22,972 nt of DNA from a virus: the IMG/VR virus record IMGVR_UViG_3300025892_000167, positions 1-22,972 of that record; one strand, given 5' to 3'. Of this stretch, positions 2,250-22,395 are shown in pieces. The translations under genes and the position numbers were made by a program. The stretch's first letter is position 1; every line of letters starts with the position of its first letter. The notes under the pieces were generated by a model. The model worked only from the letters and a program-made list of their open reading frames with translations, was not told the DNA's origin and made no database searches.

Positions 2250-2930
2250 ATGAAATTTAACCATGAAACAGTAGAGTTGCCTCCTATAACAGCAATAAAC
2301 AAAGATGGTGTTCGTGTCTACGAAACACCTCAGGGGAAATACTACCCTTCAATCACAACAGTATTGTCAATCAGAAATAAAAAAGGTATTATGGAATGGC
2401 GTAAAAGGGTTGGAGATGATGTTGCAAACTATATTGCAAGGACAGCTGCTAATCGTGGTACGAAAGTCCATCACATGGCTGAAGACTATTTAAATAACAT
2501 GCATTTGAACTGGCCTAATAAATGGTCAGAGCACCAAAAGAGTTTCTTGCCGTGGTGTATGTTTCAAAAACTTTCCCACAGACTAGAGAGTATAGATAAC
2601 ATTAGAAAACTAGAGGCTGGTTTATGGAGTGATAAGTATGGTCTTGCTGGACGTGTTGATTGTGTTGCAGAATACGATAACGAATTATCCATCATAGATT
2701 TCAAGACATCAACCAAAGAAAAGAAAGATGAATGGATTGAAAACTATTACATACAATGTGCAGCCTATGCTGAGATGTATGAGGAAAGAACTGGTGAGGC
2801 AATCAATCAACTTGTAGTGTTAGTCGTTACAGAAGATGGAACAGTTCAAGAGTTTGTTAAAGAAAAGACAGAATATATTCCGTTATTAAAGGAATCAGTT
2901 GATAACTGGTACAAAGAAAAAAACTTATAG
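2250..2930 (+). CDS. PD-(D/E)XK superfamily exonuclease, RecB/Cas4-like (226 aa)
   Basis: Predicted Mg2+-dependent DNA nuclease. Residues about 66-80 (RGTKVHHMAEDYL) match motif I, where a conserved His/Glu helix precedes the core. GLAGRVD (131-137) supplies the first catalytic Asp, IIDFKTS (148-154) supplies the D..K motif, and Q169 with Y173 (QCAAYAEMY) match the conserved QxxxY helix of the RecB/Cas4/AddB nuclease family. The protein is a single nuclease domain. Such genes are common in T4-like cyanophages, where a role in recombination or host DNA degradation is assumed but not proven. The ribosome binding site is AAGG about 10 bases upstream of the ATG. Confidence 0.85.
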   Translation: MKFNHETVELPPITAINKDGVRVYETPQGKYYPSITTVLSIRNKKGIMEWRKRVGDDVANYIARTAANRGTKVHHMAEDYLNNMHLNWPNKWSEHQKSFLPWCMFQKLSHRLESIDNIRKLEAGLWSDKYGLAGRVDCVAEYDNELSIIDFKTSTKEKKDEWIENYYIQCAAYAEMYEERTGEAINQLVVLVVTEDGTVQEFVKEKTEYIPLLKESVDNWYKEKNL

Positions 2931-3473: not shown

Positions 3474-3489
3474 AATCCTATCTTAACTA

Positions 3490-3519
3490 TTGACAAAGAC
3501 AATACTTTTGTGGTATATA
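3490..3519 (+). promoter_or_regulatory. Sigma70-type promoter for the tmRNA-pqqA cassette
   Basis: TTGACA (3490-3495) is followed after 18 bases by TATATA (3514-3519) in a strongly AT-rich stretch. Transcription would start near 3526, just before the tmRNA acceptor piece. It sits in a non-coding gap, and two other intergenic sites in the window (15938 and 19183) carry the same TTGACA hexamer with about 17-base spacing. This suggests use of the host housekeeping sigma factor. Confidence 0.6.
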
Positions 3520-3529
3520 TAATATACGA

Positions 3530-3785
3530 CTTGTTGAAGTGGAACAAAAGGTAGACAGGACTGGGGTGCGATACCCCACGCCTCCACCAAATCTAGATAG
3601 TTCCGAATTAGGGGGCGAAATAGGTTCGACTGGTATCACATAGTGAAATGGAGAGTTGTAGGTTGACTGCTTTATAGGTCAAAAGACTAAATGCAAACGA
3701 TAATTTTGCGTATGAAGGTTATGCTCTAGCAGCATAATTATTCGGGGTTTTAGGTGGACTACCTAGCAACAGAATGTCCACCATA
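3530..3785 (+). ncRNA. ssrA: Circularly permuted (two-piece) tmRNA
   Basis: The acceptor piece comes first. The T arm has stem TGGGG (3562-3566) with CCCCA (3574-3578) and a 7-base loop, followed by CGCCTCC (3579-3585), A and an encoded CCA (3587-3589). A 21-base spacer (3590-3610) follows. The coding piece then begins GGGGGCG (3611-3617), which pairs with all seven bases of the acceptor 3' strand and places G-U at the third pair, the alanine identity element. Next are the D-like segment GGTTCGACTGG, a helix 3663-3667/3678-3682, and a tag frame (3693-3737) encoding ANDNFAYEGYALAA then TAA. A helix 3753-3759/3776-3782 encloses CCTAGCAACAGAA, resembling alphaproteobacterial tmRNAs. Outer ends are estimates. 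Known role: rescue of stalled ribosomes with SmpB, tagging products for proteolysis. No smpB is seen in this window, so host SmpB would be needed. Confidence 0.93.
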
Positions 3786-3805
3786 GTTAAAAGGGAGTAT
3801 TTCTC

Positions 3806-3880
3806 ATGTGGAAATCACCAATAGTAAAAGAAGTAGCAGTAGGTTTAGAAATCAATTGTTACGCATGTGCTGAAATATAA
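3806..3880 (+). CDS. pqqA: PqqA-like RiPP precursor peptide (24 aa)
   Basis: PqqA is the ribosomal precursor from which PqqE and PqqD, with PqqF, PqqB and PqqC, build the cofactor pyrroloquinoline quinone by cross-linking a Glu and a Tyr. This peptide has the conserved Glu and Tyr at E15 and Y19 with the correct three-residue spacing. It shares W2, P5-I6-V7, E9, V12-G13 and the A22-E23-I24 ending with the alphaproteobacterial (Methylobacterium-type) PqqA. The ribosome binding site AGGGAG (3792-3797) is 8 bases from the ATG. It lies about 20 bases after the tmRNA coding piece and before a hairpin at 3893-3913. No pqqB-E genes are visible in the window, so it would need host enzymes or act otherwise. 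Two cysteines (C18 and C21) near the Tyr are unusual. Confidence 0.8.
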   Translation: MWKSPIVKEVAVGLEINCYACAEI

Positions 3881-3892
3881 TTAGTACAAATT

Positions 3893-3913
3893 GGTGGGGT
3901 GCAACGCCCCACC
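3893..3913 (+). terminator. Hairpin ending the tmRNA-pqqA cassette
   Basis: GGTGGGG (3893-3899) pairs with CCCCACC (3907-3913), with a possible extra T-G pair, around a short GCAAC loop. Only a weak T-rich stretch (TTAACCTTT) follows, so termination may be partial and allow read-through into gp33. Confidence 0.5.
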
Positions 3914-3939
3914 TTAACCTTTATTATGACGGAGTAATT

Positions 3940-4170
3940 ATGGAAGTGAAAGAGCCAGTACAAACACCTAAAGTATTTTCATTAGAAATAGAAAATATAG
4001 TCAAAGAAAAAAAATTAACACATATGGACGCCGTTTTATGGTATTGCCACAAGAATGGTATTGAACCAGATAAAGTGTCTAGTCTTATTACAAAAGCACT
4101 CAAAGAAAAAATAGAGAACAATGCTAGAGAGTTAAACTTTCTACCTAAGACAGCTCAATTGCCTATATGA
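3940..4170 (+). CDS. 33: Late promoter transcription accessory protein gp33 (76 aa)
   Basis: gp33 is the T4 late transcription co-activator that bridges the sliding clamp gp45 and RNA polymerase carrying gp55. The protein fits the short cyanophage-type gp33: FSLEIENIVKEKKLTHMDAV near residues 13-32, WYCHKNGIEPDKV, LKEKIENNARELNFL and a C-terminal PKTAQLPI. The hydrophobic and acidic C-terminus is where T4 gp33 contacts gp45. It is shorter than T4 gp33 (112 aa), as in marine relatives. A ribosome binding site (ACGGAG, 6 bases upstream) supports the ATG. It overlaps the next gene by four bases (ATGA). Its presence agrees with the exact TATAAATA boxes elsewhere in the window. Confidence 0.82.
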   Translation: MEVKEPVQTPKVFSLEIENIVKEKKLTHMDAVLWYCHKNGIEPDKVSSLITKALKEKIENNARELNFLPKTAQLPI

Positions 4171-16307: not shown

Positions 16308-16543
16308 TAACAGCAATAATGATAATAACATCAATGTACATACATGGAGATATGCGAACACATATGCCATCTATGAAAGAATGTCATAAAGCAAAGACAG
16401 AGGTTTTACTACAAGACCCTATGGCAAAGATAATATGTATACCACACTATAAAGAAGATAAATCTTCAAAGATGAGTGAACGCATGGGGGGTATGATGCG
16501 TGAGATGATGAATATGATGAAAGATTTTGAAAGTGGACAGTAA
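16304..16543 (+). CDS. Small exported Met-rich protein with two cysteines (79 aa)
   Basis: No family recognised. The N-terminus (ITAIMIITSMYIHG) is a short hydrophobic stretch that could be a signal or membrane anchor. The remainder is unusually rich in Met (15 of 79 residues) with several His: HGDMRTHMPSMKECH and SERMGGMMREMMNMMKDF. C27 and C45 are the only cysteines. Met/His clusters of this kind occur in copper-binding periplasmic proteins, but that is only a resemblance. I start at ATG 16304 since GGAG (16294-16297) is 6 bases before it and it overlaps the upstream stop (ATGA). It shares S-x3-C and CIP-x-Y patterns with the product of 17729-18013. Confidence 0.65.
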   Translation: MITAIMIITSMYIHGDMRTHMPSMKECHKAKTEVLLQDPMAKIICIPHYKEDKSSKMSERMGGMMREMMNMMKDFESGQ

Positions 16544-17291
16544 AAGTCCTATTGAAAAAGAAGATACCAAAGTATTTGTAGAGGTTTTTCAGCCTTGGTC
16601 TAACATGATTGTTCGTCTAAAAATACCAGACTCAATAACAAAATCTATGATTGAAATGACAGATGAAATTATGGATGACAAAAATGCAGAAAGTGCTGGT
16701 AAAAAACTTGCTGGACAGATAGACTCAGAATTAGTGATAAGTTTTTTAGACACAGATGTTTTAGATAAAAAAAATAGCGATTTTATTTTGTCTTGTGTTC
16801 AAAGATATGTAACAGATTCTTTAAATCAAGCATATGGGTGGGACAAAGCTCAAGCAAATATAGTTACAAAAGATGATGTCTTTACGAAGTTTGAATCTAT
16901 GTGGGTTGTATCACAAAAAGATAATGAATATAATCCTTTACATCTTCATGGCACTGGCTGTGTTTCTGGTGTGTTGTATTTAAAAATACCAGAATACTTA
17001 CCAGACAGAAAGAAGAAGACTTCAAAAACAAGGTCAAGGACAACTGATGGTGCTTTAGAGTTTGTCAACAATGCATGTTTAGATGGACGATTTGCGAGTG
17101 GAATATGTTCATTTAATCCAGAGCCAGGTGAGTTATATCTATTTACTGGATATCAGCCCCACCAAGTGTACCCATTTCGTAGTGTAGATGGTAAGGGTGA
17201 AAGACGTAGTATATCATTCAATGCAGATTATATAACTAAAGAAAAATTAGAAGAACTGAGAAAAAAGGAAGCAAAAGGTAAAAATGAATAA
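16527..17291 (+). CDS. 2OG-Fe(II) oxygenase superfamily protein, paralogue 1 (254 aa)
   Basis: Belongs to the putative 2OG-Fe(II) oxygenase family seen in cyanophages (Pfam PF13759 type). Likely iron ligands are H139 and/or H141 in YNPLHLHGTG and H212 in YQPHQVYPF; R226 or R227 in GERRSISFN would bind 2-oxoglutarate. The strand SGVLYLKIPEY (147-157) matches the core jelly-roll. The start is uncertain: TTG 16527 or GTG 16533, both inside the 3' end of the preceding gene and with no good ribosome binding site, so coupling is likely; the numbering here uses TTG. It is a close paralogue of the product of 20626-21357 (shared QPWSN, WVVSQKD.EYNP, YLKIPEY, QPHQVYPFRS.DGKGERRSIS). Confidence 0.82.
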   Translation: MKVDSKSPIEKEDTKVFVEVFQPWSNMIVRLKIPDSITKSMIEMTDEIMDDKNAESAGKKLAGQIDSELVISFLDTDVLDKKNSDFILSCVQRYVTDSLNQAYGWDKAQANIVTKDDVFTKFESMWVVSQKDNEYNPLHLHGTGCVSGVLYLKIPEYLPDRKKKTSKTRSRTTDGALEFVNNACLDGRFASGICSFNPEPGELYLFTGYQPHQVYPFRSVDGKGERRSISFNADYITKEKLEELRKKEAKGKNE

Positions 17292-17424
17292 TACAGAAAC
17301 ACGTATAGACAATGTATACACAGCATTAGACAACGCAGAGAGTGATTGGGCTAAAAATTATTGGGCAACAGTACTAACAATATTATTGCGTCAAATGAGG
17401 TCAGAGAAACCCACAGTTCACTAA
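17284..17424 (+). CDS. Small hypothetical protein (46 aa)
   Basis: ATG 17284 lies within the last codons of the oxygenase gene (8-base overlap), with AAGG about 6 bases upstream (in AAAAGGTAAAA). The peptide contains ETRIDNVYTALDNAESDWAK and NYWATVLTILLRQM, a likely helical pair with a hydrophobic centre, resembling small conserved marine-phage proteins of this layout. No signal peptide. Function unknown. It sits directly upstream of the IscA-type gene. Confidence 0.6.
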   Translation: MNNTETRIDNVYTALDNAESDWAKNYWATVLTILLRQMRSEKPTVH

Positions 17425-17444
17425 ATAATAGTAGGAGTTTCTCA

Positions 17445-17726
17445 ATGGTAACATTAACAGAATCAGCAAGAGAATATCTAAAACAAGTTGGTAAACCAAA
17501 CGTCTACCTTAGCGTACAAGGGGGTGGGTGTAGTGGTTTTACTTATGTGTGGGATACCACAGATGAGAAACCAACTGTAGAAAACCTTCACGTTGACCCT
17601 ATAGCAGAAATGTATGTATTGGGTTGCACAATAGACTATGTGAAGGAATTAGGTGGTAGCTTTCTAAAAGTTATCAATCCTAATGCCACAGCACAATGTG
17701 GTTGTGGGGAGAGTTTCGGTGTGTAA
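17445..17726 (+). CDS. A-type Fe-S cluster carrier, IscA/HesB-like (93 aa)
   Basis: IscA/ErpA/SufA family proteins carry Fe-S clusters or iron to apo-targets. The start LTESAREYLKQ and VYLSVQGGGCSGFTYVW (20-36) are typical, and the three cluster-binding cysteines are present: C29 in GGGCSGF, and C85 and C87 in AQCGCGESF. C61 (VLGCTIDYV) is extra. The family is normally about 100 aa, so it is complete. I start at ATG 17445, with TAGGAG 8 bases upstream; the longer frame from 17361 begins with TTG and adds no conserved sequence. It lies in an operon with an Nfu-type gene (18273), so the two probably act together on Fe-S proteins. Confidence 0.93.
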   Translation: MVTLTESAREYLKQVGKPNVYLSVQGGGCSGFTYVWDTTDEKPTVENLHVDPIAEMYVLGCTIDYVKELGGSFLKVINPNATAQCGCGESFGV

Positions 17727-18015: not shown

Positions 18016-18276
18016 ATGAATTTATGGTATATAACAGTTTTAGTTATTACTACATTATCGCCGCCTGAGGGTTACATGCAATACACACAAGGATTTAAAG
18101 ATGAGGCAAGTTGCCAATCATTTTTAAACGAGCCAGGTGTTAAAGAGCAAGTTGAAGCAGACATAAAATGGCAAACACAAAATGTTTTAATAGAATTAGG
18201 TGATTATACTTGTATGCAAAGAGGAGAGGCAATAGAGAAAAATGCTAGATTCGGTCATGGAGCAGTAGACATATGA
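18016..18276 (+). CDS. Small exported protein with two cysteines (86 aa)
   Basis: No family recognised. The first ~15 residues (NLWYITVLVITTLS) are hydrophobic and followed by a PPEG turn, consistent with a signal peptide or anchor. Two cysteines (C33 in DEASC and C66 in YTCM) may form a disulfide. Size, hydrophobic start and the position of the first Cys match the neighbouring 94-aa and 79-aa products. TAGGAG lies about 6 bases before the ATG. It overlaps the Nfu-like gene by four bases (ATGA), so exported and Fe-S genes are interleaved. Confidence 0.62.
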   Translation: MNLWYITVLVITTLSPPEGYMQYTQGFKDEASCQSFLNEPGVKEQVEADIKWQTQNVLIELGDYTCMQRGEAIEKNARFGHGAVDI

Positions 18277-18548
18277 GAACAGATGAAGAAGTAATAGCAG
18301 AGATTGAAAATCTTATAAACATACAGATACAACCATCTGTAGCAATGCATGGTGGTGTAGTAACATTACATTCTTTTAAAGAAGGTGTTGCAACCATGTT
18401 TATGAGTGGAGCATGTAGTGGTTGTGGTTCTTCAACTGCAACACTAAAGATGGGTATAGAACAACTATTGCAGTATCATATACCAGAAGTTAAATCAGTA
18501 GAAGGTGTAGATGATGAGAATTCTGAAGTCGCACCATATTATAGTTAG
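18273..18548 (+). CDS. Nfu/NifU C-terminal domain-like Fe-S scaffold (91 aa)
   Basis: Nfu domains hold a [4Fe-4S] cluster between two subunits through a CxxC motif and pass it on. Here C48 and C51 lie in GACSGCGSSTATLK (46-59), followed by the family helix GIEQLLQYHIPEV and V..V. The N-terminal part (VIAEIENLINIQIQPSVAMH) with GGVV matches the core (I...IRP.v...GG.v.l). It is the NfuA-type domain alone, without the A-type degenerate domain of E. coli NfuA. It starts in an ATGA overlap with the gene before. With the IscA-type protein 550 bases upstream it forms a phage-encoded pair for Fe-S biogenesis; no IscS, SufS or IscU is seen in the window. Confidence 0.93.
   Translation: MRTDEEVIAEIENLINIQIQPSVAMHGGVVTLHSFKEGVATMFMSGACSGCGSSTATLKMGIEQLLQYHIPEVKSVEGVDDENSEVAPYYS

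Positions 18549-20534: not shown

Positions 20535-20544
<10 letters not shown>
19894..20544 (+). CDS. thyX: Flavin-dependent thymidylate synthase ThyX (216 aa)
   Basis: ThyX makes dTMP from dUMP using FAD, NADPH and methylene-tetrahydrofolate. N-terminal SVVNAARVSF and HNHWSPFGHASLQFHVTAP (45-63) are typical of the family. The signature region RQLVKHQVGLVWNEVSRRYV (68-87) departs from the usual RHR-x7-S: KHQ replaces RHR and eight residues precede S83. Downstream FYVPEEWR and RMVLPQSTMTEWYWSGTL fit phage ThyX, and the length is normal. The start is an ATGA overlap with the previous gene. The stop codon lies inside the tRNA-Thr gene (20542-20544, tRNA start 20535). Confidence 0.93.
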
Positions 20545-20610
<66 letters not shown>

Positions 20611-20625
20611 GAATTGAGAGAAAAT

Positions 20626-21357
20626 ATGACAGAAGAAGTTAAGATTGAAGTGATACAGCCATGGTCTAATCTAATATACAAAATTACCATGCCAGATAAC
20701 ATCACACAAGGACTCATAGAACACACAGATAAGATGAGAGAAGACCCAAACACACCAAGTTATGGTCAAAGTCTTGTAGGTCAAGTAGATGAAGAACTAG
20801 AAATAAACATAAGAGAACTTCCTACAAACATACTAAACTTTCTAATAAATTGTAGTCGTGAATGGTTATTCAATCAATTCAATCAAGGATTTGGTTGGGA
20901 GCCGTCATGGAATTTAAAAAAAGAAGATTTGAACATGCAGTTTATCAGCATGTGGACAGTATCCCAGAAAGATGGAGAATACAATCCAATACATACACAC
21001 CCAGCAGCTGCAGTATCAGGCGTTCTCTATCTAAAGATACCAGAATATAAGAAAGATAAAAAGGACACAACAAAACCCCATAAGCAACGCACAGATGATG
21101 GCTCACTTGTGTTTACCAATAATAGTGGTGCAGATAGACGGTATTGTGTAAGTAATTGTAATGTCAATCCAAAGGTTGGTGAATTGTATATATTTGGTGG
21201 TCTACAACCACATCAAGTATATCCATTCCGTAGTTTAGATGGTAAGGGTGAAAGACGTAGCATATCATTTAATATTGTCAACCACCCAATTGACGAAGTT
21301 GAAAAGATAAAATCAGACCATTTTAAATCAAATCAAGGGGTAACATTAAATGACTAA
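20626..21357 (+). CDS. 2OG-Fe(II) oxygenase superfamily protein, paralogue 2 (243 aa)
   Basis: Same family as the product of 16527-17291. Probable iron ligands are H123/H125 in YNPIHTHPAA and H196 in QPHQVYPF; R210 in GERRSISFN would bind 2-oxoglutarate. SGVLYLKIPEY (131-141) is the jelly-roll core strand and QPWSNLIYKITMPD (11-24) is a shared N-terminal segment. The start is ATG 20626 (MTEEVK) after GAGAG; an upstream GTG (20602) lies inside the tRNA. It overlaps the following zinc-ribbon gene by 8 bases. Substrate unknown. Confidence 0.83.
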   Translation: MTEEVKIEVIQPWSNLIYKITMPDNITQGLIEHTDKMREDPNTPSYGQSLVGQVDEELEINIRELPTNILNFLINCSREWLFNQFNQGFGWEPSWNLKKEDLNMQFISMWTVSQKDGEYNPIHTHPAAAVSGVLYLKIPEYKKDKKDTTKPHKQRTDDGSLVFTNNSGADRRYCVSNCNVNPKVGELYIFGGLQPHQVYPFRSLDGKGERRSISFNIVNHPIDEVEKIKSDHFKSNQGVTLND

Positions 21358-21678: not shown

Positions 21679-21735
21679 TACTAAATAGTATCACGTTCAT
21701 CATATAGACGGAAGTACCCAATCTAGGGGAAGGAA

Positions 21736-21759
21736 CGCACTCTTTGAATAAGGAGTGTG
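21736..21759 (+). promoter_or_regulatory. Leader hairpin covering a ribosome binding site
   Basis: CGCACTC (21736-21742) pairs with GAGTGTG (21753-21759), 7 bp with one G-U. The AAGGAG ribosome binding site (21750-21755) of the 33-codon gene at 21762 overlaps its 3' arm, so opening the hairpin could control translation. The whole gap 21679-21761 is G/A-rich (GGGGAAGGAACG just before the stem). Confidence 0.45.
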
Positions 21760-21761
21760 TT

Positions 21762-21863
21762 ATGAATCAACAAACACTAATACAATATCTAAAATTAATA
21801 GAAGAACGCAGACGTAGACGTATAGAAAGAATCCTATACTGGAAACGAATTACTGCGCTCTAA
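21762..21863 (+). CDS. Arg-rich microprotein (33 aa)
   Basis: The 33-residue product begins MNQQTLIQYLKLIEERRRRR and ends with [13 protein letters not shown]: one amphipathic helix with an Arg run. AAGGAG (21750-21755) is 6 bases before the ATG. The gene ends tail-to-tail with the minus-strand oxygenase, overlapping it by 14 bases. A nucleic-acid- or membrane-binding peptide is possible. Its coding status rests on the start signal and on being open, not on a family match. Confidence 0.5.
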   Translation: MNQQTLIQYLKLIEERRRRRIERILYWKRITAL

Positions 21864-22395
21864 GGGTAAAGTCGATTGCGAGTCTTTTCTTATCGGATAG
21901 GATATCGTCAGCCCTATGGGTGACTCTGGGGTCAAATAATAGGAAATCGCATGGTACGAGGGGAAAGACTTTCCCACCATGCGTGAATCCACCACCATCA
22001 ACGGCACAATCCCAATCGGAGTTCAATACACCGAGTAGTTTAATAATCTTCTTGTCTTTCAGAGCATCATTCACATGGTCGGTATGGTAGTTATCCTCTC
22101 TATGTCTATCCTTGAGGGATATACCACAGAAAAGTATCTCTGGATAGAAATACTTTGGTTCTTTCTCATAGATATTCAGAAGAAGACTCATAGCCATACC
22201 AGCCAACTGTGTATCATTGTTTGCATCTTTTTTACCACCATTAACAACATCTAGTTTGAGATGTTTCTTCTCAAAGGGTGAATTAGGGCCCATAGGGTAT
22301 TTCATATGCCAACACTCACTCTGTTGTGCTTGATACTTCATGAACTCTAGAAACATGGGTGTACAGCAATCCTCAATCGTCTTAATGATTGCCAT
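21850..22395 (-). CDS. 2OG-Fe(II) oxygenase, P4H-like (181 aa)
   Basis: Contains a canonical HxD...H...R set: H104 and D106 in [11 protein letters not shown]160 in [11 protein letters not shown], and R171 in [10 protein letters not shown], which would bind 2-oxoglutarate. The connecting region [20 protein letters not shown] and [13 protein letters not shown] is the usual jelly-roll pattern. It differs from the other three oxygenases in the window. I start at ATG 22395 ([10 protein letters not shown]), inside the uvsX 3' end (14-base overlap). The longer frame from 22419 adds only shadow sequence. Substrate unknown; the 14-base overlap with uvsX indicates co-translation. Confidence 0.85.

Follow-up and report, generated by a model that had tools for sequence, protein, structure and literature searches.

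The IMG/VR virus record analysed here (22,972 bases, all of which constitute the window) belongs to a marine, T4-like virus, whose tail-tube cap protein finds its nearest homologues in the phages HTVC008M, Melnitz and Mosig (26-34% identity). It carries a permuted tmRNA gene (ssrA) of the alphaproteobacterial type, intact and located at approximately 3527-3784 (+ strand). Its other genes include those for PhoH, a PDDEXK nuclease and a gp33-like late-transcription coactivator, and the gene order (PhoH - PDDEXK - tmRNA - gp33) is that of Melnitz. The locus comprises the following features:

2250..2930, + strand: PDDEXK nuclease, conserved upstream neighbour of the tmRNA (PF12705; synteny)
3490..3523, + strand: candidate sigma70-like promoter, TTGACA (3490-3495), 18 nt, TATATA with extended TG (TGGTATATATAATA) (sequence)
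3527..3589, + strand: tmRNA acceptor piece, 5' end approximate (RF04321, RF01849, covariation, sequence)
3556-3558, + strand: P2 strand CAG of the acceptor piece
3562-3578, + strand: T arm UGGGG/CCCCA (sequence reading)
3579-3585, + strand: acceptor 3' strand CGCCUCC (sequence reading)
3586 and 3587-3589, + strand: A73 and encoded CCA (sequence reading)
3590..3610, + strand: spacer (intervening segment), 21 nt, without ORF (sequence)
3611..3784, + strand: tmRNA coding piece, including D-loop analogue and tag region (RF01849 to 3784; helices counted in covariation)
3611-3617, + strand: acceptor 5' strand GGGGGCG, its third pair with the acceptor 3' strand being G-U (G3-U70)
3630-3632, + strand: P2 strand of the coding piece
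3693..3737, + strand: tag frame GCA..UAA, ANDNFAYEGYALAA (ARAGORN, Rfam, sequence; codons 3693-3734, UAA 3735-3737)
3753-3759/3776-3782, + strand: 3' hairpin with ACCTAGCAACAGAA, in the coding piece
3806..3880, + strand: pqqA-like ORF MWKSPIVKEVAVGLEINCYACAEI (PQQ precursor peptide), 24 aa, directly after the tmRNA (PF08042, TIGR02107)
3893..3916, + strand: terminator-like hairpin closing the tmRNA-pqqA unit (hairpin scan)
3940..4170, + strand: late-transcription coactivator (T4 gp33-like), conserved downstream neighbour (PF16805, 74.1 bits; phrog_254)

ARAGORN recovered a permuted tmRNA at 3497-3828 (+ strand) with the tag ANDNFAYEGYALAA. Two Rfam models, RF04321 tmRNA_permuted (3527-3737; 121.2 bits, E 1.4e-23) and RF01849 alpha_tmRNA (3479-3784; 109.5 bits, E 2e-29), matched so far above their gathering thresholds that a chance match is excluded, while the one-piece model RF00023 had no match in the window, the order of the parts being permuted. 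An earlier, sequence-only reading had placed a permuted tmRNA at 3530-3785 and proposed covariance models as a check; the prediction is confirmed, with coordinates right to within a few bases. The architecture it described can be read directly from the letters: the acceptor piece, with T arm and encoded CCA, lies ahead of the coding piece, and an alanine-type acceptor (perfect 7-bp GGGGGCG/CGCCUCC stem with G3-U70 as third pair, A73 and CCA) joins the two across the 21-nt spacer (3590-3610). The tag frame (3693-3737) is terminated by UAA, as had been noted, and has a hydrophobic C-terminus. When folded in isolation, the tRNA-like domain recovered its acceptor and T stems and was mildly more stable than shuffled sequences (z of about -1.4), for which reason we relied on covariation instead.

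What did not stand was the implied novelty of a two-piece tmRNA in a phage, since a permuted tmRNA was published in 2022 for the Methylophilales phage Melnitz (MZ577097), in a study whose tally of two-piece tmRNAs in phage genomes stands at 53, of which 50 are marine or aquatic (PMC9004378). The window's tmRNA is a further member of this class. Melnitz resembles the window in its alphaproteobacterial-type permuted tmRNA, its PhoH, PDDEXK and gp33 neighbours and the absence of a detectable SmpB, but differs in spacer (142 nt with a candidate ORF, against 21 nt without one), in tag (ANDNYVPVDYALAA against ANDNFAYEGYALAA), in the pqqA-like ORF (not found in its locus by a pattern scan, present in the window) and in the glutamine riboswitch, which sits at ssrA in Melnitz (PMC9004378) and 18 kb away in the window. 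RF04321 matched in all three complete phages (Melnitz, HTVC008M and Mosig), though the tmRNAs of the pelagiphages HTVC008M and Mosig (90.6 and 93.6 bits, respectively) are more divergent, with the ARAGORN tags ANFNEYALAA and GEDNFALAA. The cyanophage literature searched reports no phage tmRNA. Alphaproteobacterial ssrA shares with the window the order acceptor piece - spacer - coding piece, the GGGGGCG/CGCCUCC stem, the ANDN- start of the tag and the 3' ACC.AGCAACAGAA hairpin; the tags end mostly in ALAA in phages, as against RLAA, ALAA or AVAA in the cellular sample.

In most of the close relatives listed, TTGACA/T-N-TGGTATAAATA or TGGTATATATA occupies the corresponding position ahead of the tmRNA, and many carry the TGGTATAAATA form, which, as TATAAATA, also fits the T4 late-promoter consensus. 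In the window, the promoter scan scored the site at 3496-3523 with 10/12, a frequency expected by chance in this region (6 sites found, 5.1 expected). The pqqA-like ORF exceeded the cut-offs of both families (PF08042: 24.6 bits, cut-off 21.1; TIGR02107: 27.7 bits, cut-off 20), has the conserved E-x-x-x-Y pair of PqqA (GLEINCY, E15 and Y19) and is preceded by a GGGAG Shine-Dalgarno sequence. It is kept in close relatives (52 relative matches, which fall into 11 protein variants), in which hairpins of different sequence occupy the same place after pqqA. The tmRNA and pqqA are probably co-transcribed. A phage pqqA was reported earlier from the Lake Baikal T4-like methylophage population VP_266 (PMC7678222).

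Conservation and selection among phage relatives

Relatives were collected by two protein scans, and the fixity of the locus was assessed in 59 distinct complete PDDEXK-gp33 intervals, found by protein and not by tmRNA pattern. All 59 contained a tmRNA (42 recovered by ARAGORN, the remaining 17, which ARAGORN alone missed, by Rfam), which indicates that the gene is fixed in the clade; in a differently drawn phage group, the tmRNA was described as 'common, but not defining' (PMC9004378).

Covariation was assessed on an alignment of 42 phage tmRNAs (41 distinct) over 22 tested pairs, with shuffled and slid controls. Among the 41 distinct sequences, 95.8% of the tested positions were paired (79.0% in shuffled controls), and covariation reached 0.417, against 0.123 in shuffled and 0.024-0.062 in slid controls. 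Compensatory change was strong in the tRNA-like helices and the 3' hairpin, and was also found at pairs 5 and 6 of the acceptor stem. The alanine-type identity elements were invariant: G3-U70, A73, CCA and 5/5 T-stem pairs occurred in 82/82 phage tmRNAs. Part of this set was chosen by a pattern fixing CTCCACCA/GGGG, and the locator gave those features some weight, but the 28 protein-found tmRNAs agree. All 82 have the full T stem, whose stem and loop sequences come in 20 combinations.

In 58/58 distinct phage tag frames, alanine is encoded by the final codon, the one before it and the fourth from the end; as these codons are kept through four synonymous spellings, the tag peptide is under selection. 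Three phage tmRNAs (L015, L056 and L064) have tags ending in AQAA and not ALAA. The tmRNA is thus no sporadic acquisition: a large clade of marine phages has it as a fixed gene under selection, and ARAGORN often misses it.

Protein genes within the tmRNA spacer of relatives

Spacers measured 8-48 nt in the cellular sample and 8-499 nt in phages, and in some relatives they span 133-499 nt and mostly bear ORFs. The clearest case is a conserved membrane-type ORF of 38 aa (MKNPLVREVSKWMFKAYIxWSICADITLLAGIIYLVFF), encoded by 228 viral contigs, 80 of which were fetched (L196 and L495-L573, e.g. L196:1714-1827). It was present in 77 of the 80, and at each of these 77 loci its TGA stop lies exactly one base 5' of the coding piece. 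In 69 of the 80 contigs, the ORF is enclosed by a 7/7 acceptor stem, with the CCA 39-42 nt upstream of its start; at the other eight loci with the ORF, no CCA was found within the 120 nt examined. The ORF has an AGGGG-type ribosome site and is under purifying selection, with a pN/pS of 0.122 in frame and of 1.02 and 1.98 in the two alternative frames (34 distinct sequences). The ends of this spacer pair as a stem, and the ribosome site falls within a predicted hairpin. A single precursor would hence yield both the tmRNA and an mRNA for the 38-aa protein, and the question of how a spacer that needs excision can also be translated becomes testable.

Other spacers hold different genes. An ORF starting MNWDWHW was found in 43 contigs (L574-L616), in 30 of them within tmRNA spacers (pN/pS 0.086). 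We rejected it as tmRNA-specific, since the module (about 130 nt) also occurs elsewhere in phage genomes, with free copies outside tmRNA genes in L580, L595 and L609 (twice in the last), and we regard it as a dispersed element. One contig (L164) has a gene resembling an HNH homing endonuclease (131 aa) inside a 464-nt spacer, around which the acceptor stem, coding piece and tag region are still present. Melnitz and L240/L245 carry spacer ORFs of the IPKYLSG type.

Protein genes inside a tmRNA gene have a counterpart in tmRNA genes with group I introns that harbour homing endonuclease genes (PMC11915505), although there they lie in a self-splicing intron, and in the phage relatives in the spacer excised from a permuted gene. 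The sections of that 2025 survey drawn on here describe one permuted spacer that holds a tRNA gene and a second with a repeat, and mention no protein gene in such a spacer (PMC11915505). What appears to be new, besides the fixity of the gene and the chimeric ssrA described below, is that the excised spacer of the permuted tmRNA carries protein genes in relatives. The spacer of the window (21 nt) is too short for any such gene; the window itself has neither a spacer gene nor a chimeric ssrA (see below), but belongs to the same locus.

Chimeric ssrA genes in an alphaproteobacterial family

A BLAST-type search of 385 alphaproteobacterial genomes with the window's tmRNA returned no close copy (the best matches reached about 75% identity over 70-95 nt), which rules out a recent capture from a host. 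The best DNA match, confined to the tag and 3' part, came from genome G402, the ssrA of which is chimeric: its 5' part is 97% identical to that of a family member, while its tag and 3' domain match the phage contig L228 (91% over 96 nt, E 3.6e-32). Over more than about 26 nt, none of the remaining genomes among the 385 matched this L228 region. Within the family, 4 of 13 genomes (G402, G414, G415 and G416) bear the chimeric gene (loci L281, with the tmRNA at 2437-2786 on the - strand, L474, L475 and L477), and its recurrence in independent assemblies makes an artefact unlikely. The chimeras have tags of the form ANDNVASQD(F/H/Y)ALAA, and the other family members ANDNDLALAA or ANDNRMALAA. In G402 the gene resides on a 920-kb contig (WLWZ01000001.1), flanked by what we take to be a thyA-like gene on one side and an sspB-like gene on the other.

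In a tree of the tag plus 3' half, phages and chimeras grouped together, apart from cells (support 100/99.9), and the 5'-half tree gave no resolution. An AU test did not reject the chimeras joining the cells (p 0.30), so that the phage-to-cell direction is drawn from parsimony and sequence identity, not from the tree alone. As the trait is derived within the bacterial family, transfer from phage to bacterium would be the most parsimonious direction. It can now be tested whether recombination of phages with host ssrA alters the degradation tags of bacteria. Overall, we hold it to be quite likely that the clade's permuted tmRNA is a fixed locus, the excised spacer of which doubles as a site for small-protein genes, and that at least one alphaproteobacterial lineage received the tag and 3' domain of its chromosomal ssrA from these phage tmRNAs.

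Partners, proposed function and rival readings

The sequence-only reading had seen no smpB in the window, and a protein family search agreed. Nor did 20 related phage records, among them the complete Melnitz, HTVC008M and Mosig, yield SmpB (PF01668) in a search that recovered the family in 10 of 14 control genomes. Given this absence, we assume that SmpB, AlaRS, the processing RNases and ClpXP are those of the host, and the phage tmRNA presumably uses host SmpB.

We regard the gene as very probably functional and of phage lineage, its most likely role during infection being to rescue ribosomes and add tags together with SmpB, AlaRS and ClpXP of the host. Transcription of the precursor would start at the promoter near 3490-3523. 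Host RNases, among them RNase P and the enzymes that process tRNA 3' ends, would cut out the 21-nt spacer, and the two pieces would remain paired via the acceptor stem and P2. Host AlaRS would charge the tmRNA via G3-U70, A73 and CCA, and together with host SmpB it would, in the infected cell, free ribosomes that have stalled on cleaved or non-stop mRNA, adding ANDNFAYEGYALAA to the stalled products and so directing them to degradation by ClpXP. The phage would benefit by keeping ribosomes free while host ssrA and mRNAs undergo destruction. The comparison also makes it possible to test why lytic phages should bring along ribosome rescue but no SmpB.

Tagging might instead be targeted at chosen proteins, as the sigma70-like promoter before the gene and the degron-like ALAA end could suggest; we deem this improbable, given that tmRNA acts wherever ribosomes stall and does not select proteins, and that nothing in the analysis shows targeting. 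An equally improbable reading has the RNA acting as a decoy or inhibitor: by competing with host tmRNA for SmpB, AlaRS or ribosomes, it would block host trans-translation rather than carry it out. This reading has a precedent in phage DS6A, where a short, CDS-less tmRNA form inhibits the endogenous tmRNA when expressed in E. coli (PMC11915505), but a decoy needs no tag, whereas the complete frame, start context, degron-like end and stop are selected in 58 distinct frames.

Selection on the tag peptide speaks against a relic as much as against a decoy. Although tmRNA genes are known from the literature to serve often as insertion sites for integrative elements, it seems highly unlikely that the gene is a functionless passenger left over from host DNA (e.g., from an attachment site in ssrA): it is complete and fixed in place, covaries and keeps its tag under selection throughout a divergent clade, and has no close cellular copy in the 385 alphaproteobacterial genomes. 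Ribosome rescue and tagging with host partners is the reading that we retain.

Several further features were recorded elsewhere in the window. The glutamine riboswitch (RF01739, 43.6 bits; 21692-21741, + strand) is followed by an ORF for a very basic protein of 33 aa (21764-21865), for which family searches gave no convincing match. Two TIGR02466-type proteins (16527-17291 and 20602-21357, + strand; scores below the curated cut-off) are probably paralogues, and a tRNA-Thr(UGU) gene (20535-20610) lies between thyX, the end of which it overlaps, and the second of these copies. The phage also encodes proteins with Fe-S_biosyn and NifU-like domains (17361-17726 and 18273-18548, + strand), resembling those of iron-sulphur cluster assembly.
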